A stretch of DNA of 33,503 nt, taken from a virus. Position numbers and translations under genes: made by a program. Below, piece after piece: positions 13,698 through 33,503 of this stretch. Numbering within the stretch: the stretch's first letter is position 1; every line of letters starts with the position of its first letter. The stretch covers positions 1 to 33,503 of the IMG/VR virus record IMGVR_UViG_3300021956_000048; one strand, given 5' to 3'. Under the pieces are notes generated by a model. That model saw only the letters and a list, made by a program, of their open reading frames with translations. It was not told the origin of the DNA and searched no databases.

Positions 13698-16600
13698 TTA
13701 ACCAACTAAATATCCCATAAAGAATGGATATGCTTCAGTAGCACTATTATTTCCTGGGAATAAATTTGACCCATTATCAGACTGAGACATTATCCTAACT
13801 GTATCTCCAGCTGCTAAATTTACTAAAACTGTTTTTGCTAAATCCCATCCATAAGGAGCACCAGATTGCCCAGTTTTATCCATTCTTAATTGAAACTCTG
13901 GACCAGCACCACCAGATGAATTATTAATATATAAATACCATCTATAAACTGTTGCCTCTGTTCCCATTAAATTACCAAAAGCAAAGAAATAAACACCAGC
14001 TACTGGAGCAGTAAATATTCCGTTTGATGTATTATAGTGACTACCTCTGTTGAATTGTGTTGTTGGGAATATCCAATAACTACCAGATGCATAAGTAGAA
14101 CCTGACACACCATAAGCATAAAATCCTGGTTGATATGGAGTTGTAATTTTACCATTAGTGTCAATTTTCATTCTAACTGCACTATTAATACCAGCAAATA
14201 AAATATTTGCTCCATCAATTTCTCCATCTACATAAGAAGTACCAGCATCGTTTATAAAACCAACAGAAGATACACTTTGGTTACCTAAACGCAAATATGT
14301 ATTTTTATTAGTTCCATAGTTTACTACAAATTTGTCAATAGGATTAGAAATACCAATTCCTACATTTCCAGAATTAGTTATTCTTAATCTTTCTAACCAA
14401 GTAATATTTGCATTTGCAGTCCCACTTGTTGCAGTTCTAAAATAAAAATCTCCACCACCTTGAACTAACATTGTAGCATAATCTGCTAATGCATATTTAT
14501 AATTACTACCATCATAATAATTATTATTACCGCCAACCCAAGAACCATTACTCGTTCCACCAGAATATGAACCATAAGGATATTGAGAAACAATAAATGG
14601 AGACCCCCATGCCGAAGTTGATACACCAACTCCAATAGCGGTACTTCCATTATCATTTAATATACTACTACCTATTGTACTTGTCCCAGTAAATTTAGGA
14701 ATTGAATTTGTTGTACCAGTTCCAGTTACTGGGTTTGTTAATGCCGCTTGATATTGTGGGATATTTAAAGTTCCAGCACTAAATGTCGCAGCACCGCTTG
14801 TACCAGTTGTAGTTAAAGTAATTGTTGCTTGCTTAGAGTTAAATGTTGTCCAATCAGCACTTGATAAGTAACCAGCTTGTGAGCCGTTTGCTTGTTGAAT
14901 TGAGAAAACACCAGTTGTGTTGTTATAAGCTAAAGGACTTGTAGCACTTAAAGATGTTAAGTTGATACCACCTAAACCAGCTAAAGTATAAGTAGGCACA
15001 TTTAAAACACCAGTTGTGCTATTGTATGTTGATGCTCCGTTGTTTCCAGTAGTCGTTAAACTAATAGCCCCACGAGCTCGAGCATCTGTATAATATAAAT
15101 TTGTACCCTCTGTTACTTGAGTTGTTGTGTAATCTCCGCTTTGAGCCGTTACTGCACCAGTTCTACCAAATACACTTGTAACTGGATAACTAATATCACT
15201 TGTTAAAGCAATGGTTCCACTTGCATTAGGGAATGTGTAATTACGATTTGCAGTATTAGCACTTGCAATCAAAGTCATTGTATAACTATGGTCATTTAAC
15301 CATGCAATGTCTCCGTTTACATCTGCATACATTGTTGATGAACTCGCACTACCAGTTGGAGTTCCACTTTGATGCTTCATGTCCACATGACCAAGACCGC
15401 CAGTTCCGTTTACTTTTATTCCTCTTGCATTCAAATCCCACGCACCCAAATCAACAGTTTGTGTTGCACCAGTATAAGGTACATACCCAGTCAAACTTGG
15501 CAAAGTTGCTAATGATCCATCTCCAGCCACATATTGACCAGATGTTCCAGCAAAGTTTAAACCAATGTTTCCACTTGATGTGATTGGAGTGTTTGATATT
15601 GTTAATGCAGCAGCCGTTGATGTAATTCCAACCGATGTCACAGTGCCTACATACTGATCATTACTTGTTATAGTAAAGTTTGGATATGTTCCACTTATTG
15701 ATGTAGTTCCAGCACCAGTTAAAGAAACAACTTGATCTGGAGCACTATTTGTAATCACACCAGTTGTTGAATTATAACTAATTCCAGTTCCAGCACTCAA
15801 CGCACCTCTTGCTCTCGCATCGGTATAATAAAGATTTGTTCCCTCGCTTATGTTTGATGTAGTCAAAGAAACTGCACCAGTAAATCCGTTCACAGAAACA
15901 ACGGCATCCGTGTTGTCCACTTTTTGCCATACACCTCCGTTAAATATCGCCCAGTCGCCTACATTCCAATCGGTAATTCCGTTTAGGTTTGTAGAACCAG
16001 CAACATTTACTATGTAATACCAACCAGCCGTTCCAACGCTTGATGTTAATGTCGGAGTGTTAGTTGATGCATTCCAAGTTCCCTTGTATATTGATCCACC
16101 AATCAAACCGTTGATTTGGTTTTGTAATTTACCAAAACCAGTTAAGATTGAGTCAGTCGCTTGGATGGTTCCACCAGTGATATTTACACCAGTCAAAACC
16201 TTTCCAGTTACTGCACTATTCACTAATGATGGAGATGCATAAGTTCCACTTAATTCGCCACCAGCAGTAATTCCCTCAATTGTTGTTAAATATGTTGAGT
16301 TGTCGTAAGAAATGGTCGTTCCACTTATTTTAACAAATCCAGTGCCACTTAAAGCAGCTTGTTTGCCATTAAAGGTTGTCCAATCTGTACTTGACAAATA
16401 TCCGTTTTGTGATCCGTTTGCAACTTGAATGCTAAATGCTCCAGTTGTATTATCGTACAACAATGGACTCGTAGCACTCAAACCAGTTAAACTAATACCC
16501 CCAAGACCAGCCAATGTGTAAGTTGGAACGTTTAAAGTTGCACCAACTAAAGTTGCTGATCCATTGTTACCAGTTGTGGTTAATGTTAAAGCATTTTGCT

Positions 16601-17636
16601 TGGCATTAAAAGTGTTCCAATCAGTTGATGACAAATAACCATTTGTTGTTGTATTTGCTTGGCTAATTGAAACCACACCACTTGTAACCGAAATTGGACT
16701 TGTGCCAGTGATAGCAGCTTGAGCCCTTGCAGTTGTAAAATATAAGTTAGTACCCTCCGTTAGATCAGTTGTTGTCTTAGCAGCAAAAGCCGAATTGAAT
16801 CTTGCTTGAGTGTAATAAAGGTTTGTTCCCTCTGCAACATCCGTTGTTGTTAAAGTAACAGTTCCACCCAATGCAGTCAAGTAACCATTAATGGTAATTG
16901 AATCGTGCAAAAGGCTTGTGTTTGGAATATCATCTAAAGCAATAATTCCAGTTGTATTTGAATAAACCACACCAGAGTTTGAGTCGCCACTTATAGCATA
17001 TCTCGCACGTTGGTTGGTAAAATATAAGTTTGTATTTTCTGGTACTAATAACGTAGTATAATCGCCACTCTCTGCCACAACCGCCCCAGTACGACCAAAA
17101 ACCGATGTTACTGGAGCCGTGTCGTAATCACTCCATGTAGCCGTTATAGTTCCACCGCCTTGCTCGTTTAAAGTCAAAGTCTTTGTTGTGGTTCCAGTTA
17201 CGGCAGCCGATGTCAAACTACGAGAATATGCCGTATCCCAAGTTGATTGAGATGCAGTCGTTGGAATAGAATATCCACTTGCCAATCCTAAAGCTAAAGT
17301 TCCAGCCGTTGTAATTGGATTGCCACTAATCGTTAAACCAGTTGGCACACTCATATTTACGGAGGTAACTGTACCAGTGTAAGTCTCGGTATTATTTACC
17401 CATGCCGTTCCGTTATAAACTAAGGCTTGACCAGTCAAAGGATTTGAGATTGTCACATCCCCCAATTGAGTCAAATTATAGTCTCCATCTTGTGCAATTA
17501 CATTGCCCACACGACCAAACACCGAATAAACCGAACTTGGCAAAGGATAACCGCCTTGAGGCGACTCAATCACAATGGTTGTAGTGTCAACGTTTATGTC
17601 GATTTGATCTTGTTGTATTGTTATCTCTGTACTCAT
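13698..17636 (-). CDS. Tail fibre with internal repeats and C-terminal C1q-like domain
   Basis: This is a 1,312-residue fibre that should bind the host surface. I use the ATG at 17636 (MSTEITIQQDQ), which forms an ATGA overlap with the adaptor gene; a frame extension begins at a TTG. The shaft carries recurring cassettes: GTNLY(Y/F)T..(A)R-type motifs five times, GYLSS-DW-TFN-KQ three times, and SVFGR-G repeats three times. The last about 143 residues (from PGFYAYGVSG) look like a C1q/TNF-type trimeric head: NGIFTAPVAGVYFFAFG, VNLAAGDTVRIMSQ and a terminal FFMGYLVG. Preceding this is a segment with WLERLRITNSGNVGIG, common in phage fibres. Confidence 0.92.
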   Translation of the reverse strand: MSTEITIQQDQIDINVDTTTIVIESPQGGYPLPSSVYSVFGRVGNVIAQDGDYNLTQLGDVTISNPLTGQALVYNGTAWVNNTETYTGTVTSVNMSVPTGLTISGNPITTAGTLALGLASGYSIPTTASQSTWDTAYSRSLTSAAVTGTTTKTLTLNEQGGGTITATWSDYDTAPVTSVFGRTGAVVAESGDYTTLLVPENTNLYFTNQRARYAISGDSNSGVVYSNTTGIIALDDIPNTSLLHDSITINGYLTALGGTVTLTTTDVAEGTNLYYTQARFNSAFAAKTTTDLTEGTNLYFTTARAQAAITGTSPISVTSGVVSISQANTTTNGYLSSTDWNTFNAKQNALTLTTTGNNGSATLVGATLNVPTYTLAGLGGISLTGLSATSPLLYDNTTGAFSIQVANGSQNGYLSSTDWTTFNGKQAALSGTGFVKISGTTISYDNSTYLTTIEGITAGGELSGTYASPSLVNSAVTGKVLTGVNITGGTIQATDSILTGFGKLQNQINGLIGGSIYKGTWNASTNTPTLTSSVGTAGWYYIVNVAGSTNLNGITDWNVGDWAIFNGGVWQKVDNTDAVVSVNGFTGAVSLTTSNISEGTNLYYTDARARGALSAGTGISYNSTTGVITNSAPDQVVSLTGAGTTSISGTYPNFTITSNDQYVGTVTSVGITSTAAALTISNTPITSSGNIGLNFAGTSGQYVAGDGSLATLPSLTGYVPYTGATQTVDLGAWDLNARGIKVNGTGGLGHVDMKHQSGTPTGSASSSTMYADVNGDIAWLNDHSYTMTLIASANTANRNYTFPNASGTIALTSDISYPVTSVFGRTGAVTAQSGDYTTTQVTEGTNLYYTDARARGAISLTTTGNNGASTYNSTTGVLNVPTYTLAGLGGINLTSLSATSPLAYNNTTGVFSIQQANGSQAGYLSSADWTTFNSKQATITLTTTGTSGAATFSAGTLNIPQYQAALTNPVTGTGTTNSIPKFTGTSTIGSSILNDNGSTAIGVGVSTSAWGSPFIVSQYPYGSYSGGTSNGSWVGGNNNYYDGSNYKYALADYATMLVQGGGDFYFRTATSGTANANITWLERLRITNSGNVGIGISNPIDKFVVNYGTNKNTYLRLGNQSVSSVGFINDAGTSYVDGEIDGANILFAGINSAVRMKIDTNGKITTPYQPGFYAYGVSGSTYASGSYWIFPTTQFNRGSHYNTSNGIFTAPVAGVYFFAFGNLMGTEATVYRWYLYINNSSGGAGPEFQLRMDKTGQSGAPYGWDLAKTVLVNLAAGDTVRIMSQSDNGSNLFPGNNSATEAYPFFMGYLVG
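14821..16600 (-). repeat. Internal repeat units of the fibre shaft
   Basis: Two long repeat units of about 75 residues lie near 14850-15060 and 16370-16600. Both contain LNVPTYTLAGLGGI, LSATSPL-Y-NTTG and GYLSS-DW-TFN-KQ. Spacing and identity make recombination between them possible, giving fibre-length or specificity changes. Limits are approximate. Confidence 0.6.
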
Positions 17637-18001
17637 GAAATTTGTGTTATATCTTGATAAACTACGAAATTGCCCCAAATATAAGTCTTAGTAAAGTCTC
17701 CTGGAAAAACCACAGTCATGTCGTAAACATAACCACCAGCATCGATTGTGATTGGATAATCAACGGAAATTAAGTTGTTGTCAACTCCTCCAATTGTTAT
17801 ACCATTACCATCACTATCTAATGTTGCAGAAACAGTTGTTGAATTTATACTTGGTCGAATTTGGATTTCACAATAAGCCCCAGTCAAATCGATTGGAACA
17901 GTGTTTGCAAATAGAGCAAAGGTTTGAGCCCAGTTATCTTCTTTCCAAATTTGAATGTTGTAGTTTGCTGGTCTTAAATCAGCACTATTATTACAAGCCA
18001 T
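17633..18001 (-). CDS. Baseplate/fibre adaptor (BppU N-terminal-like)
   Basis: This encodes 122 residues, beta-rich. The N-terminal motif QIWKEDNWAQTFALFANTVP with IDLTGAYCEIQIRP resembles the N-terminal attachment domain of BppU-type baseplate proteins, which lock receptor-binding proteins onto the tail. It sits immediately before the fibre gene and couples to it through an ATGA overlap, which fits a connector role. The call is from pattern and context. Confidence 0.6.
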   Translation of the reverse strand: MACNNSADLRPANYNIQIWKEDNWAQTFALFANTVPIDLTGAYCEIQIRPSINSTTVSATLDSDGNGITIGGVDNNLISVDYPITIDAGGYVYDMTVVFPGDFTKTYIWGNFVVYQDITQIS

Positions 18002-18022: not shown

Positions 18023-18895
18023 TTACTCAATTTTAAACAATTCAATAAAATTAGAATGTTCGCCCCAATATGGATGCACTTTGTATGTTATTAGTCGATT
18101 GTAAATTGAATTATGACTTGTAAAATGCACTCCGTGATTTATGTGAATTGCCTCATTTTTACATAGCCATTGAATCCTCGTTAAATAATCGGTCTCAATA
18201 TTTCCGCTATTTGTTTTGAGTGCGTTTGGTAAAATCCTTTCACAATGCTCAATGGCATCTTCAAACCTCATTGTCATTTGATGAAACGGCTCATCGTTTT
18301 GGGTTTTCTTTTGCCATCCATCTTTATTAATTCCTCCATAATTCATATTTGTCAAAACTTGCCCCCTTTCAAAGTCTGGGAAATCAAAATACCCCTCTGG
18401 GTACAAAACATCGTGCTCCAAGAAACTAACATATTCATATTGCCCCATATCCTTTGCCATGTAAAGACATTGCATAATTTGAAGTAATTGATTAAGGTGG
18501 CTTTGAGACCGATACCAACTTGGAATGCAATAAAACGGATTTAAGGGCATTTCTTCCCAAAGGCAAGTGATTATGTCGGCTTTGCCATTTGAGGCGATTT
18601 TTATGCTATCTAATGACTTATAAATGGCATCCCAAATCCTTTTATTGTTATTGTTAGAATAGAAAATGCCCAATCGTTTGTTTTTGGTGGTTGGTAGGGT
18701 AACCAAATCTCCCTCCCTAAATCGGCTTGAGTGTAACTCTCCGTTGTGTTCCCAATCAATAGAAAGCCATTTGACTTGCCCCACTTGTGGATCGCCCACA
18801 ATGTCGTTGTTTGCCCTTATAACTAATTTATCATCCTTGACTATTAATTTATCGGTACATTCTTTGCCTCCGTAAAACCCACAAATTACACGCAT
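18023..18895 (-). CDS. Glycosyltransferase-like protein, GT-A fold (second)
   Basis: This encodes 290 residues. The first about 75 look like a separate beta domain. From residue 74 (RLGIFYSNNNN) it resembles GT-A enzymes: FLEHDVLYPEGYF at 158-170 contains an acidic EHD (160-162) in the place of the metal-binding DxD. A late HGVHFTSHN segment could bind the sugar donor. No membrane segment. It overlaps the first glycosyltransferase by ten bases. The substrate is unknown; the poly-Thr tail protein two genes upstream is a natural candidate. Alternatives are modification of phage DNA or host surface sugars. Confidence 0.7.
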   Translation of the reverse strand: MRVICGFYGGKECTDKLIVKDDKLVIRANNDIVGDPQVGQVKWLSIDWEHNGELHSSRFREGDLVTLPTTKNKRLGIFYSNNNNKRIWDAIYKSLDSIKIASNGKADIITCLWEEMPLNPFYCIPSWYRSQSHLNQLLQIMQCLYMAKDMGQYEYVSFLEHDVLYPEGYFDFPDFERGQVLTNMNYGGINKDGWQKKTQNDEPFHQMTMRFEDAIEHCERILPNALKTNSGNIETDYLTRIQWLCKNEAIHINHGVHFTSHNSIYNRLITYKVHPYWGEHSNFIELFKIE

Positions 18896-19845
18896 AATAC
18901 AGAGGTTTTAGCAGTTTCTTGAATTAGTTTGTAGTAATTGTAGGATGCAGAGTCCTCATTTAGTTTTAACTGAACTCCATAAGGCACTTTGGTATTGTAA
19001 TCGCCTTTGTAAAATATTCCGCTTTCACTATTGACAGCCCCAGCATTATGGTAAATGTAGCATTCATCCCAAGTCTTTTGATTGCTTGTTGCCCAAGAGA
19101 ATTTTAAATCATCGTGGCAAATGGTTTTGTGTCCTCGTTTCCACCCATTCCATAGCACCGCCCACATATCCGCACACCAAATTTGCAAAGGATGATAAGG
19201 TTGTCTCGCCTCTCCAGGTGGCATTGTATGTCTATCCAAAGCAATCTTTTCGTTGTTAAGGTCGGTAATTTCCTTAAATAATCTCTCGGAATCCCTTTCC
19301 ACATCTGCCCAAAATTGAGAGTCAATCCCTTTCATGATATATTGAGCACCGATACAATTTAACTCGTTATCCTTGATGATTTGTTTGTCAATATCCACTA
19401 TCTCGCACATCTTGTCCAATACATCCTCGCCTTTGCTTATAATGTAATCGTGACTAATATAAAATCTTGTGTCCGATCCATACCAATTTTGGTCAAAAGT
19501 AAACTTGTACCATTCTAATGGCTTAGTAAATACAATGTCACAATCATGGTAAAATATGGCATCATCCTTTAAGTCTGGGTTATTCGCAAAATGTTGTTTT
19601 AAGATGTTTGGTCTAATGGATGAAACATAATGTTTGGTTTCTCGTTGATCAAAGTAAAAAAAGAACCTCGCAGCATAATGATTGGCAAGTCTTGACCACT
19701 CAAAGGGAACAGTGTCTTCAATATGACAAACAATGTCAATATTGTTTGGGTTTATCCCAACACTCATAAAGTTTTGCAACATTACCTCAACTTGCCATGC
19801 ATAAAACAATGTGGCTGGTTGGGCACAAATAAATCTCATCTTCAT
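18886..19845 (-). CDS. Glycosyltransferase-like protein, GT-A fold (first)
   Basis: This encodes 319 residues. The segment DAIFYHDCDIVFTKPLEW holds D101-C-D103, a classical DxD motif for a nucleotide-sugar and metal. NCIGAQYIMKG, WCADMWAVLWNGWKRG and YIYHNAGA in the second half fit acceptor and donor loops of GT-A enzymes. It has no signal peptide and no membrane segment, so it is cytoplasmic. The start follows the AAACGTATG context. It lies 11 bases after the poly-Thr tail protein and is co-transcribed with it. Confidence 0.78.
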   Translation of the reverse strand: MKMRFICAQPATLFYAWQVEVMLQNFMSVGINPNNIDIVCHIEDTVPFEWSRLANHYAARFFFYFDQRETKHYVSSIRPNILKQHFANNPDLKDDAIFYHDCDIVFTKPLEWYKFTFDQNWYGSDTRFYISHDYIISKGEDVLDKMCEIVDIDKQIIKDNELNCIGAQYIMKGIDSQFWADVERDSERLFKEITDLNNEKIALDRHTMPPGEARQPYHPLQIWCADMWAVLWNGWKRGHKTICHDDLKFSWATSNQKTWDECYIYHNAGAVNSESGIFYKGDYNTKVPYGVQLKLNEDSASYNYYKLIQETAKTSVLCV

Positions 19846-19856
19846 ACGTTTTTATT

Positions 19857-21704
19857 TTAAGGACATAAACCATTGTCGGTAATAGTACATAAGCTATCAA
19901 CATCCACCACAGTTCCTTGAATAGCACAAAATGTACTCGTTCCACCATCTGCAATATACACACTTTGTGGGTTTCCAAAACAATCTGTATAATCAACTTG
20001 AGCCGTTAAACCAAATCCGTTATTGTTATCAGCCGTATAAGACTCACAAACACCTGGATAAGCAGTTGTTGTCGATGTTGTTGTCGTAGTTGTTGTAGTC
20101 GTTGTCGCACAAGCTGGAGTGATACCTTTAGCCAAAACATTCGTTGGATTGTTTTTATCCCTAACGGCAACATAATGAGCAGTATCATCTTGGTTAAAGA
20201 ATGTTCTTGATCCACTTGTCTCATCCGTAAACGCACCACTATAAGCCCCACTCGGAGAGGAATAAGTTTGCGTACTTACTTGATATAAACCAGAACCGCC
20301 AGTAAACGCATTCACAGTGATTGAAGCCGTTCCACCACCACAAGCATACGAAATGTTAAAATTAACCGCAGCCAATGTAGTCGTGGTCGTAGTAGTAGTC
20401 GTAGTCGCTGGACATCCGCTTAACCCAGTTGCCGTAATTGAAAGATGAACACCACCTGGATCACTATAATAAATTTGGTCAATTCTAAATGTTTGACCAG
20501 TTGATGTAACTCGGTCATTCAAAGCAAATGATCCACTAATGTAGTTAGTCGATGTTGAATTGGCACCAGTAGCACAATTATAAAGCAAATACCATACTTG
20601 TGGCAAAGTTGTTGTTGATGTCGTTGTCGTAGTCGTACAATTTGGAGTCACAGATTTAGCCAATACGTTTATAGTATTATTCTTGTCTCTAACCGCCACA
20701 TATGCCGTTGCAGTTGCACTCCATCCGTAAAATGTCCTTGAACCACCAGTCTCATCGCTAAATGTACCAGCATAAGCAGCGGATGCACTTGCATAAACTT
20801 GAGTTGAAACTTGGTAAGCACCAGAACCATTTTGGAAATTGTTTACTGTGATATTTGACAATCCACCACTACAAGCATAAGAAATATCAAAGTTAACCAA
20901 TGGAGCTGCCGTTGTAGTTGTTGTGGTTGTCGTTGTTGTAGGACAACCAGTCAAACCAGTTGCAGTAATTGTTAAAGCCAAACCACCTGGATCGGAGAAT
21001 AAAACTTGATCAATACGATAAGTTTGACCAATCGCAGTCACTCGATCATTTAATGCAAAACTACCATTTGGATAAGACCTTGAATATTCAATTGCAGCAG
21101 TAGCACAATTGTACAACTTGTACCAAACTGGTGGTTGAGTTGTTGTTGTGGTCGTACTTGTGGTGGTTGTAGTCGTGGTAGTCGTTGTCGTACTTGTGGT
21201 TGTTGAGGTGGTTGTACTTGTCGTGGTTGATGTGGTTGTGCTCGTTGATGTGCTCGTGGTACTTGTCGTAGTAGTTGGAGTTGCCTCCGTGTAATATTTA
21301 CCAGTACCAGTCAAATTAACGCTATACGTTCCAATTTCCTTATAGTTCCCAGTAATAGAAAATCCACCTATAAAACAATATCCACTTATATAACGATAAC
21401 CATCGACTCCGTTATTTATTTGGAATCGTGTTAAAAATAAAGTCCTATTCTTTTGTGCTAAAGCAATCTCATCGTAAGAAAAACCATCAAGAGTAACAAT
21501 CCCATCACAACTCATTGACCAACTTGAAAGGTTATCCTTAGGTAAATTAAACCACGCATCCGTTGAAGATGCGACCTCAATTAATTCTGTTTGTGTCGTA
21601 AATGTGCAATTTGTAGAACACGCAAATGGAGTCTCCGTTGCTGGAATTGTACTTGTGTCTATTTTATACAAGATTACATTACTACCATTTACCTTAACTG
21701 CCAT
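19857..21704 (-). CDS. Tail-tube-like protein with poly-Thr linkers and A-B-A-B modules
   Basis: This encodes 615 residues. Residues 1-140 form a tail-tube-like domain that closely matches the protein at 21717-22127 (FACSTNCTF, SWSMSCDGIVTL, INNGVDGY, GTYSVNLTGTG). A 47-residue linker of almost only Thr and Ser (143-189) follows. Then come module A1 (192-254, WYKLYNCATAAIE...SDPGG...TATGLTGC), a linker, module B1 (268-356, FDISYACSGG...VAVRDKNN), a linker, A2 (370-432), a linker, B2 (446-532), a linker and a Cys-rich end domain (551-615). It is probably a tail-tip or side-spike adhesin. All four ACN codons are used in the linkers, so the Thr runs look selected at protein level. Confidence 0.85.
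   Translation of the reverse strand: MAVKVNGSNVILYKIDTSTIPATETPFACSTNCTFTTQTELIEVASSTDAWFNLPKDNLSSWSMSCDGIVTLDGFSYDEIALAQKNRTLFLTRFQINNGVDGYRYISGYCFIGGFSITGNYKEIGTYSVNLTGTGKYYTEATPTTTTSTTSTSTSTTTSTTTSTTTSTTTSTTTTTTTTTTTSTTTTTTQPPVWYKLYNCATAAIEYSRSYPNGSFALNDRVTAIGQTYRIDQVLFSDPGGLALTITATGLTGCPTTTTTTTTTTAAPLVNFDISYACSGGLSNITVNNFQNGSGAYQVSTQVYASASAAYAGTFSDETGGSRTFYGWSATATAYVAVRDKNNTINVLAKSVTPNCTTTTTTSTTTLPQVWYLLYNCATGANSTSTNYISGSFALNDRVTSTGQTFRIDQIYYSDPGGVHLSITATGLSGCPATTTTTTTTTTLAAVNFNISYACGGGTASITVNAFTGGSGLYQVSTQTYSSPSGAYSGAFTDETSGSRTFFNQDDTAHYVAVRDKNNPTNVLAKGITPACATTTTTTTTTTSTTTAYPGVCESYTADNNNGFGLTAQVDYTDCFGNPQSVYIADGGTSTFCAIQGTVVDVDSLCTITDNGLCP
21138..21278 (-). repeat. Low-complexity Thr/Ser linker-coding tract
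   Basis: About 140 bases encode residues 143-189 of the poly-Thr protein. Codons are nearly all ACN, with occasional TCN or AGC, in mixed order. It is therefore not a simple microsatellite, although its repetitive nature makes misassembly possible. Four shorter tracts of the same kind separate the modules downstream. Confidence 0.8.
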
Positions 21705-21716
21705 AAGTCAAAGTTA

Positions 21717-22127
21717 CTAAGTTATTGTGTAAGCCCCAACCCCTTGCAAAGTAACCGAATAAGTTGAAATGTCTTTATAAGGTGCGGTTAATGATATTGA
21801 AGTAATTATTGCCGTTCCTCCAAGAATGACAAATCCATCTGCCCCATTATCAATGCTAAACTTTATGTTTATTGTATTTCTTGCCAATTGGGTTGCTAAC
21901 ATATCAGCGTAAGAGTAACCACCTAAAGTTACAATTCCATCACAAGTTACACTCCATGAAGCCACATCTATTTTGTATTCGTTAAACCACGCAGATGATT
22001 GACTTGTCACATCTTTTTGGCTTACTTGAACATCAAATGTGCAATTGGTTGAACACGCAAAAGCCGTATTGGTTGCACCAACCGACTTATAAAGTATTAT
22101 ATTTTTGCCTTGAACTTTGTCTGCCAT
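21717..22127 (-). CDS. Tail-tube-like protein (paralogue)
   Basis: This encodes 136 residues, clearly paralogous to the first 140 residues of the gene downstream: FACSTNCTFDV, AWFNEYK, SWSVTCDGIVTLGGYSY, IDNGADGF and DISTYSVTLQGVGAY recur in order. The fold looks like the TP901-1-type major tail protein. It lies after the hub gene, not in the tube position, so it may form a tail-tip ring or collar. It overlaps the hub stop by one base (TAATG). Confidence 0.75.
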   Translation of the reverse strand: MADKVQGKNIILYKSVGATNTAFACSTNCTFDVQVSQKDVTSQSSAWFNEYKIDVASWSVTCDGIVTLGGYSYADMLATQLARNTINIKFSIDNGADGFVILGGTAIITSISLTAPYKDISTYSVTLQGVGAYTIT

Positions 22128-26265: not shown

Positions 26266-26718
26266 TTAAGATTGTTCTGTTTGTGCAATAGGAGGTACGC
26301 TAACTACAAATGTTGCAGAAAATTTAACATCATCTTTATCATCTGCGTTTACATCAAAATTGCTTATAAACACATCACTTGTTGCTGTTCCACCATAGTA
26401 AACATCTCCAGCAACTGGACTTGCTTTACCCATTTTAATTGTAAAAACAGTACCAGCAGCGTGTGCAGCATATAATTGTTGGTAACTATCTTTTGATGGA
26501 GTTCCAGTCTCATCAATTGCAAATCCCTCACATTTGAATGATTGATTGAATGCTGGACCTGGTTGGAATAAGTCTCCACACTTAGATGTTGCATCAATTG
26601 TGTTTACAGTTGATGTAAAAGAGTTTGATGTCAAACAAGCTACTGGTTTAAAAGATGTACCACCAGCTAAGTCTGCGAAAAGTAGATAGTCTCTACCGCT
26701 TACAAAAGTTTCTGCCAT
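26266..26718 (-). CDS. Major tail tube protein
   Basis: This encodes 150 residues of TP901-1-like type. The opening FVSGRDYLLFADLAGG, the centre ACLTSNSFTSTVNTIDATSK and a beta-rich C-terminus (VFISNFDVNADDKDDVKFSA) fit tail tube proteins that stack as hexamers. Its place between tail terminator and chaperones is canonical. It is distinct from, but fold-related to, the two tube-like genes near 21-22 kb. Confidence 0.88.
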   Translation of the reverse strand: MAETFVSGRDYLLFADLAGGTSFKPVACLTSNSFTSTVNTIDATSKCGDLFQPGPAFNQSFKCEGFAIDETGTPSKDSYQQLYAAHAAGTVFTIKMGKASPVAGDVYYGGTATSDVFISNFDVNADDKDDVKFSATFVVSVPPIAQTEQS

Positions 26719-32215: not shown

Positions 32216-33503
32216 TTATGGGTTTTGGTCGGTTGGTAAATCTAATGGCATGAACTGATCTTGTGCTTGTAAGTTAGATGGGATGTAAAGTTTTTCCATT
32301 TCCTCTTGTGGGATATATTCTGGAGTCTTGATGCCCATGATTTCCATCTTTTGTGCTGGTGCAATCCACCAAGCCTTATCTAACCAATCAACTTGTTCTG
32401 TCTTGTTTGCCTCTAATTCTTGATACACTTTGATGTCATATCCAATGTAAATGTTTTGTCCACGATAACCCCAATCACTCTTTAACTTTCGGTTTAAGTT
32501 CTCTGCAATACCATCAAGCAAAGGAATAGCACAACGCAAAGTCAATGCTTTCTCTCCCTCTAATTGGTTGTTGTATGTTTTGTTATCGCTATCGTTTAAC
32601 AATTGAGATGGTACACCATAAATGTTACAAAGGGATTTCATATCCCATTTCTCACTCTCGATAATGTTCAACTCAACTGGACTCAATCCGATTTGTTTCC
32701 AATCCACCTTGTAACCAGACACGGCAATTGAATTGTAATTTGATGAGCCACTTTTTTCGCCAACAGACTTTTTAAGTGCTTGGGCTTGTTGTGCCCCACT
32801 ATTAGGATCAAATCGGTCATCGTTAAAGTATAAAACTCCAGCTGGTCCACCATTCTCAAACGCACTAACGGCAGCAGTCTTAGCCTCATTTGAACGAGTC
32901 AAAGTTCTTGCAGCAGCTAATAAAGGCGATTGACCATAAAGCTGGTTACCAGTTACGTTCCATGCTGGGTTAAAGTATTTGTCGTGCAATATTTCTTTTG
33001 GATCAAATGACCACAACTTACCATAGAATAATTGGTACCCCACTCGCACTGGTGGAAAGACTTCCACGTCTGCGATGATAGCCATGTATTGAGATGGTAG
33101 TGCGTACAACTCGAATGGTTTTGATTGGTTTGCACCTCCCTCGATAAGTTTTGCATAAATAAAAGAGTTTCCAGTGATTAGTTTAAATGCACACCATTGC
33201 TCAACTAAGTCAGCAAAAGTGTCCTCCTCGTTTGGATATTTCAATAAATCGTTTAGTCTTGCATCGCCAGTGTAAATCTCAAACGCTTTTGTGTGCAATT
33301 CTTTTACCTCTTGCCAGTTTGTAATTTTGTCTGGTTGTTTCATCAAGGCTTTATAACGAGCGGCAGCTTGAGTGTCCACTTCCTTATAAACATGGAATGG
33401 AGCCAACTTTGCTTTGTCCGTAATTAGTTTGATTATTGAATAAACAATGTCGTTTGCTTGATAACCATCTCGAACATAACCTTGTGCATTTGCACCTTGC
33501 CAT
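32216..33503 (-). CDS. Phage portal protein, HK97-like (right copy, N-terminus cut)
   Basis: This right copy lacks the first 98 bases of the gene but has the full C-terminus. It ends MPLDLPTDQNP at a TAA (32216-32218). The C-terminal part includes a typical portal stem/crown region (DWKQIGLSPVELNIIESEKW, NIYGVPSQLLNDSDNKTYNN). It overlaps the left copy at 97% nucleotide identity with one amino-acid difference. An in-frame TTG at 33406 is not the real start. Confidence 0.92.
   Translation of the reverse strand, partial: WQGANAQGYVRDGYQANDIVYSIIKLITDKAKLAPFHVYKEVDTQAAARYKALMKQPDKITNWQEVKELHTKAFEIYTGDARLNDLLKYPNEEDTFADLVEQWCAFKLITGNSFIYAKLIEGGANQSKPFELYALPSQYMAIIADVEVFPPVRVGYQLFYGKLWSFDPKEILHDKYFNPAWNVTGNQLYGQSPLLAAARTLTRSNEAKTAAVSAFENGGPAGVLYFNDDRFDPNSGAQQAQALKKSVGEKSGSSNYNSIAVSGYKVDWKQIGLSPVELNIIESEKWDMKSLCNIYGVPSQLLNDSDNKTYNNQLEGEKALTLRCAIPLLDGIAENLNRKLKSDWGYRGQNIYIGYDIKVYQELEANKTEQVDWLDKAWWIAPAQKMEIMGIKTPEYIPQEEMEKLYIPSNLQAQDQFMPLDLPTDQNP
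32506..33503. repeat. Right copy of 998-bp terminal direct repeat
   Basis: This is the second copy of the terminal repeat and pairs base for base with 1-998. Differences are scattered (for example 128, 152, 185, 233, 269 and 887 in left-copy numbering) and fall almost all on third codon positions. The single amino-acid change is Thr (left) to Ser (right), at left positions 659-661. Confidence 0.95.

Follow-up and report, generated by a model that had tools for sequence, protein, structure and literature searches.

Glycosylation of virion proteins is known from mycobacteriophages (Freeman et al. 2023, Cell Host Microbe). The accessible text on that system (PMC11652166, PMC12619734) describes transferases encoded by the phage, with capsid and tail-tube subunits that bear O-glycans at their C-termini, and the glycans are reported there to shield against antibodies. 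Among titles and abstract openings, no paper was found that links poly-Thr or threonine-rich phage proteins to glycosylation or to a transferase; most subscription journals lie outside the coverage of this search.

The window (the whole stretch of DNA analysed here, a 33,503-base virus record) contains a tail protein rich in threonine runs, followed by two putative glycosyltransferases, here called GT1 and GT2. The favoured reading, given a probability of about 0.8, is a phage-encoded virion O-glycosylation module in which GT1 acts on poly-Thr and GT2, or a variable cassette in its place, elaborates the glycan. Virion self-glycosylation had been proposed in a preliminary description of the sequence, and it is supported here on a comparative and structural basis, by co-occurrence and by GT-A folds.

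Gene arrangement and the threonine-rich protein

The ends of the record (1-998 and 32506-33503) match at 967 of 998 positions, with 31 point differences. The genome is therefore probably circularly or terminally overlapping, about 32.5 kb long, and assembled from a variable population. The genes of the locus lie on the minus strand throughout, in the order 136-aa protein, 615-aa protein, GT1, GT2. The features are as follows.

26266..26718, minus strand: 150-aa tail-tube-like protein, PHROG 1407 (E 4.2e-17), upstream of a tape-measure-like gene
21717..22127, minus strand: 136-aa tail-tube-like protein free of Thr runs, paralogous to the N-terminus of the 615-aa protein
19857..21704, minus strand: 615-aa candidate acceptor, with an N-terminal tail-tube domain, A-B-A-B modules and a C-terminal piece, and five Thr/Ser runs as joints
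21138..21275, minus strand: longest of the Thr/Ser runs (residues 144-189), a proposed acceptor for O-glycans
18886..19845, minus strand: GT1, 319 aa, proposed Thr O-glycosyltransferase, with a GT-A fold, PHROG 4417, and conserved HDxD (100-103) and HNAG (266-269)
18023..18895, minus strand: GT2, 290 aa, proposed elongation or spreading enzyme, with a rhamnose-lectin-like segment (about 1-65) and a GT-A domain (70-283)

The tail-tube identity assigned to the poly-Thr protein in the preliminary description was borne out. Its N-terminus matches the profile of PHROG 1407 (major tail protein, E 1.4e-14). This N-terminus shares 50% identity with the 136-aa neighbour, which itself matches the Pfam Phage_tail_2 profile (E 2.7e-10). 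Judged by gene position, the 150-aa protein is the probable main tail tube protein. A fibre-like protein of 1326 aa, with a C1q domain at its C-terminus (E 1.9e-8), is encoded at 13698-17678 and likely forms the receptor-binding tip.

The Thr/Ser runs of the 615-aa protein occupy residues 144-189, 256-265, 357-366, 434-443, and 534-547, and are 46, 10, 10, 10, and 14 residues long. Threonine makes up 37 of the 46 residues in the first run and 23% of the whole protein. The five Thr-rich linkers described earlier are present, except that the longest has 46 residues under a strict count and not 47. The repeated modules are also present, and their exact layout is two distinct units, each occurring twice (A-B-A-B), plus a C-terminal piece. 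These modules matched no Pfam family, and module B had no PDB match.

Within the runs, Thr is encoded by ACA (33), ACG (18), ACT (16), and ACC (12), with a codon entropy of 1.9 bits. The codons differ within the runs of four relatives (L001, L002, L003, and L004), while Thr or Ser is retained. The suggestion that the runs are maintained at the protein level agrees with these many synonymous changes in close relatives. A DNA microsatellite was ruled out as the source of the runs, because all four Thr codons occur and change among relatives.

The Bacteroidota D-S/T-x motif occurs at D507-T-A and D603-S-L, as had been claimed, and a scan of the 615-aa protein found none within the Thr runs. Phage proteins are assembled in the cytoplasm, and for this reason the periplasmic motif is probably irrelevant here.

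The two transferases

GT1 begins 11 bases after the stop of the 615-aa gene and carries DCD at residues 101-103, within HDCD, in agreement with the preliminary description of a GT-A-like protein. Residues 3-311 match the profile of PHROG 4417 (E 2.8e-67), a family with its function listed as unknown, which is likewise matched by the GT1 homologs of Firmicutes and Chryseobacterium phages. GT1 had no sequence match in Pfam, NCBIfam, or the PDB, and NCBIfam gave nothing usable for GT2 either. The GT8 Pfam profile was not matched, the 35 GT1 members giving just unrelated sub-threshold matches, and GT1 is not assigned to GT8.

Structure prediction of both enzymes against GT-A families, earlier proposed as a check, was carried out with AlphaFold models built from alignments of 35 relatives for GT1 and 24 for GT2. 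The GT1 model (pLDDT 94.8) has a GT-A fold. Foldseek placed UGGT catalytic domains at the top, and VIA-align gave Z 14.9 over 230 residues with glycogenin and Z 14.3 with LgtC. The GT2 model (pLDDT 89) gave Z 14.4 with a bacterial GT-A enzyme over residues 70-253, and Z of about 13 with TarP, SpsA, chondroitin polymerase, and GalNAc-T2.

Glycogenin and LgtC bind metal through DxD plus a late His. Residues D101, D103, H266, A268, and G269 of GT1 are invariant across 23 divergent members with identities down to 28%, and the DxD with its late conserved His would fit this metal-binding pattern. The dN/dS values against relatives are 0.02-0.13 for GT1 and 0.06-0.12 for GT2, with dS near or at saturation in most pairs. 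Values this low point to strong purifying selection on both genes.

The GT2 gene overlaps the GT1 stop. The EHD noted earlier at residues 160-162 is confirmed as E160-H161-D162, invariant in the GT2 alignment. By profile, the GT2 N-terminus matches L-rhamnose/galactose-binding SUEL lectins (5h4s, E 7.6e-17; CSL3, E 1.9e-10), mainly through one 25-residue motif, with N-D-x-x-GDP-x-x-G-x-x-KYLE shared. The cut-off of Pfam SUEL_Lectin was not reached, with a match in one of 16 GT2 members (E 0.075). Because the Pfam cut-off failed and the match is mostly this motif, the segment is termed lectin-like only.

The variable composition of the slot after GT1 bears on the role of GT2. In two close GT1 relatives (L005 and L009), GT2 is absent and a GT32-type gene takes its slot. 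The genes after GT1 differ between relatives, and most are glycan-type enzymes. Those present where GT2 is missing or displaced include transferases of GT32 type and of the GT2 family, methyltransferases, and one radical SAM/SPASM protein. Examples are listed here (strand not given).

L045, 6909-7994: radical SAM/SPASM protein
L048, 6969-7535: methyltransferase
L060, 6998-7651: GT32-type transferase

By analogy with surface glycans, which vary, this pattern fits a core initiating GT1 with exchangeable elaborating enzymes. The case for GT2 in the module is weaker than that for GT1, because GT2 has no match among phage records and was found here only on contigs that mostly carry GT1 too. GT1 may thus glycosylate poly-Thr while GT2 is a passenger or has another substrate, such as host glycans, as the missing phage-record matches and the GT32-type replacement would allow. 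This reading is unlikely, though it survives better than the other alternatives. Against it, 47 of 56 further GT2 loci carry GT1, mostly immediately upstream or one gene off, and in the window the two genes overlap. GT2 also bears the lectin-like segment, and other glycan enzymes occupy its slot elsewhere.

Association of GT1 with threonine runs

Scanning viral contigs identified 335 GT1 relatives. The best 80 of the 335 were retrieved, and these include 35 representatives less than 90% identical to each other. An ORF with a Thr/Ser run lies directly upstream of GT1 in 28 of the 35, a count that is not fully independent because the upstream proteins are mostly sequence-related, and 34 of the 35 have one somewhere on the contig. 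The upstream proteins include one of 166 aa that ends at a contig edge, one of 285 aa, and others of up to 1992 aa. In L022 the Thr-run gene is on the other side of GT1, and in five representatives (L019, L049, L054, L056, and L063) the Thr-run ORFs are elsewhere in the contig. Only L070, a 24-kb fragment, lacked a Thr-run ORF among the 35. The DNA-pattern search used for the runs missed one contig, G008, which was recovered at the protein level, and yields single Ser-rich chance matches. The preliminary description had called for this search of related phages and had named, as an outcome that would refute the idea, transferases consistently occurring without Thr-rich tail proteins. The opposite was found; phage GT1 relatives almost always have such a protein, and comparable loci without GT1 almost never carry Thr-rich virion proteins.

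The 36 control contigs had a minimum length of 14 kb. The terminase of the window served to select 30 of them, irrespective of GT1, and the tail-tube protein the other six, which were chosen from contigs without GT1 in the retrieved stretch. Thr runs were present in 4 of 4 contigs with GT1 and in 0 of 32 without it, four of the latter having a single Ser-rich pattern match. Tail-tube homologs of 73-91% identity are accompanied by the poly-Thr paralogue wherever the contig extends that far, and by GT1 where it extends further. Those of 53-62% identity have neither in the retrieved stretch. Within the window's own clade alone, GT1 and the Thr runs could reflect one shared inheritance.

Wider sampling was obtained from isolated phages. 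By tblastn (E <= 1e-3), GT1 relatives are present in 74 phage records, and Thr-rich ORFs were found at the locus in 21 of 21 distinct phages inspected, with GT1 at about 22-37% identity. Often the run forms the very C-terminal end of a major structural protein, as in the following phages.

phiFL1A: gp45 (head) and gp50 (tail)
4995_1: MCP
R3.3: capsid-like and tail proteins
bIL285: orf50
1706: orf10 and orf13
CHPC836: capsid and tail proteins
PLE3: capsid and tail proteins
VPE25: tail protein

Phages 521B and LP65 have weaker repeats, PTTV or TTTETQ. The phiFL1A head protein had no PDB sequence match.

The association also appears inside single tail-protein families. Among gp50-like major tail proteins, a Thr tail is present in 3 of 3 scanned loci with GT1 and 0 of 11 without it; some members of the tail-less set without GT1 share 82-87% identity with phiFL1A gp50 in the core. 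For a Bacillaceae-type family, an alignment (A5) was built with the tails removed, and it gave a distant match to two solved major tail proteins. Of 80 loci retrieved with it blind to GT1, 73 extended 2 kb or more downstream. Among these, 18 of the 20 loci with GT1 have the tail, as against 0 of the 53 without (Fisher p 3.5e-15, relatedness ignored). The two GT1 loci below the tail cut-off are L572, with a short TTTSTTSA, and L577, where GT1 is 3 kb off and near another Thr-rich ORF. On the core tree of this family, about 11 changes are needed for GT1, of which at least 4 fall on well-supported branches, and about 10 for the tail, with the short tail scored as present. When independent pairs are taken from supported branches, the tail follows GT1 in 3.4 of 4 and the opposite never occurs, with p 0.125-0.25, four pairs being too few to reach significance. 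ORFs with at least 8 Thr per 15 residues number 39 of 426 in loci with GT1 and 2 of 930 in loci without it. In L504 and L573 the GT1 frame is fragmented and the Thr tails are retained, reflecting recent enzyme loss or sequencing errors.

GT1 relatives also occur in bacterial genomes, where 56 loci were analyzed. Thr-run ORFs are present in all 35 Firmicutes loci. Over the 56 loci, 327 ORFs lie within three genes of GT1, and 43 of these are Thr-rich; of the 270 ORFs more than 5 kb away, none is. A clear poly-Thr neighbour is missing in 19 of 21 Bacteroidota chromosome or MAG loci (one MAG is labelled delta-proteobacterial), and the fold family is for this reason judged not exclusive to poly-Thr. 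In L377-L396, mostly Bacteroidota chromosomes, most GT1-domain proteins are longer (about 480-590 aa) and have a C-terminal extension, which matches PHROG 15655 in the single protein checked. The long genes adjoin LanC-like, thioredoxin, and GT2-type genes, and appear to form a cellular branch that acts on a different substrate. These clusters are possible host glycosylation or modified-peptide clusters.

In the reverse direction the association is weak: GT1 was found within the retrieved stretch in 7 of 64 poly-Thr viral loci obtained by DNA pattern, six of them adjoining, many of the loci being incomplete. Poly-Thr has further uses or further enzymes. Many poly-Thr viral proteins without a nearby GT1 are seen in L217-L295. 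The 64 genes downstream of poly-Thr genes lacking GT1 include two GT2-type, one GlcNAc-type, one GT group 1, and two radical SAM genes; a general rule that other transferases follow such genes was rejected on these few cases.

Judged from these sequence comparisons, chance is excluded for the association of GT1 with poly-Thr, because of the tests on contig controls, tail families, and genome loci. That the transferases instead act elsewhere, on phage DNA or host surface sugars, with poly-Thr as unrelated flexible spacers, is improbable. Phage transferases elsewhere do both jobs, and VPE25, which carries GT1, has glucosylated DNA; however, its authors credit this to a T4-like beta-glucosyltransferase (PMC4999554). 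The neighbours of GT1 are structural genes, and inside single tail-protein families poly-Thr is predicted by the presence of GT1. The earlier alternative that the linkers are merely spacers fails for Firmicutes phages: there the capsid and tail proteins end in poly-Thr that is free at the C-terminus, joins no second domain, and leaves nothing to space. Hitchhiking of poly-Thr and GT1 as cassette cargo with no enzyme-substrate link is very improbable: the genes often adjoin and phages exchange modules, but Thr tails occur on unrelated proteins (capsid, tail, protease-annotated, and small) at several genes within one phage, the distance to GT1 being 5-7 genes in some cases and large in certain phages.

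Proposed pathway and comparison with known systems

Under the O-glycosylation reading, GT1 would act after translation, in the host cytoplasm, and would use a nucleotide sugar donor to place a sugar on Thr (and Ser) of the poly-Thr runs of the 615-aa protein. GT1 is the likely initiating enzyme, because in Firmicutes phages it is found where GT2 is absent. The lectin-like segment of GT2 may then hold the nascent glycan while GT2 lengthens or spreads it. The decorated protein would enter the tail through its tail-tube domain, giving a mucin-like coat. The catalysis, the order of steps, the cytoplasmic timing, and the coat itself are all inferred. Candidate benefits are shielding from receptors, proteases, or antibodies, and adhesion to surfaces.

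A broader reading is somewhat favoured, in which poly-Thr is a portable glycosylation tag on capsid, tail, or decoration proteins of Bacteroidota and Firmicutes phages, read by a single PHROG 4417 enzyme, with lineage-specific enzymes elaborating the glycan. Such a role would give PHROG 4417 a testable function and would explain why lactic, enterococcal, staphylococcal, and Bacteroidota phages have capsid and tail proteins with poly-Thr tails. If virions are glycosylated beyond the actinobacteriophages, this would affect antibody recognition, sticking to mucus, and particle persistence. The pair of tag and enzyme would also be useful for glycosylating proteins in bacteria.

GT1 shares with the glycogenin/LgtC/UGGT group (GT8, GT24) a fold (Z of about 13-15), a DxD-type motif, and a conserved C-terminal His motif. 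It differs in having only about 6-13% identity to them and no sequence-profile match. GT2 and the SUEL lectins (5h4s, CSL3) have a motif in common at the GT2 N-terminus, but the match covers just about 25 residues per lectin repeat, and the Cys of GDPC is not retained in GT2.

The animal polypeptide GalNAc-transferases offer an analogy in their Thr/Ser-rich (mucin) acceptors and in a transferase with a sugar-binding-like domain, and GalNAc-T2 is among the structural matches of GT2. The homology shown is limited to the GT-A fold, the lectin-like segment of GT2 is N-terminal and of another type, and the phage setting is cytoplasmic. Bacteroidota periplasmic O-glycosylation at D-S/T-x is similar in placing an O-glycan on Thr/Ser in Bacteroidota, whereas the runs of the window lack the motif and phage proteins are made as well as assembled in the cytoplasm.

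None of the 74 phage records matching GT1 by tblastn is named as a mycobacteriophage, and no homologous mycobacteriophage transferase was detected among them. Relative to the mycobacteriophage system as its accessible text describes it, the present one, known from sequences and models, has long poly-Thr runs as proposed acceptors, occurs in Bacteroidota and Firmicutes phages, and has a lectin-like second enzyme. The Thr positions also vary among the GT1 phages, with C-termini in Firmicutes phages versus internal linkers in the window. On the same text, mycobacteriophage virion glycosylation is the closest in kind, the likeness lying in the phage-encoded transferases.
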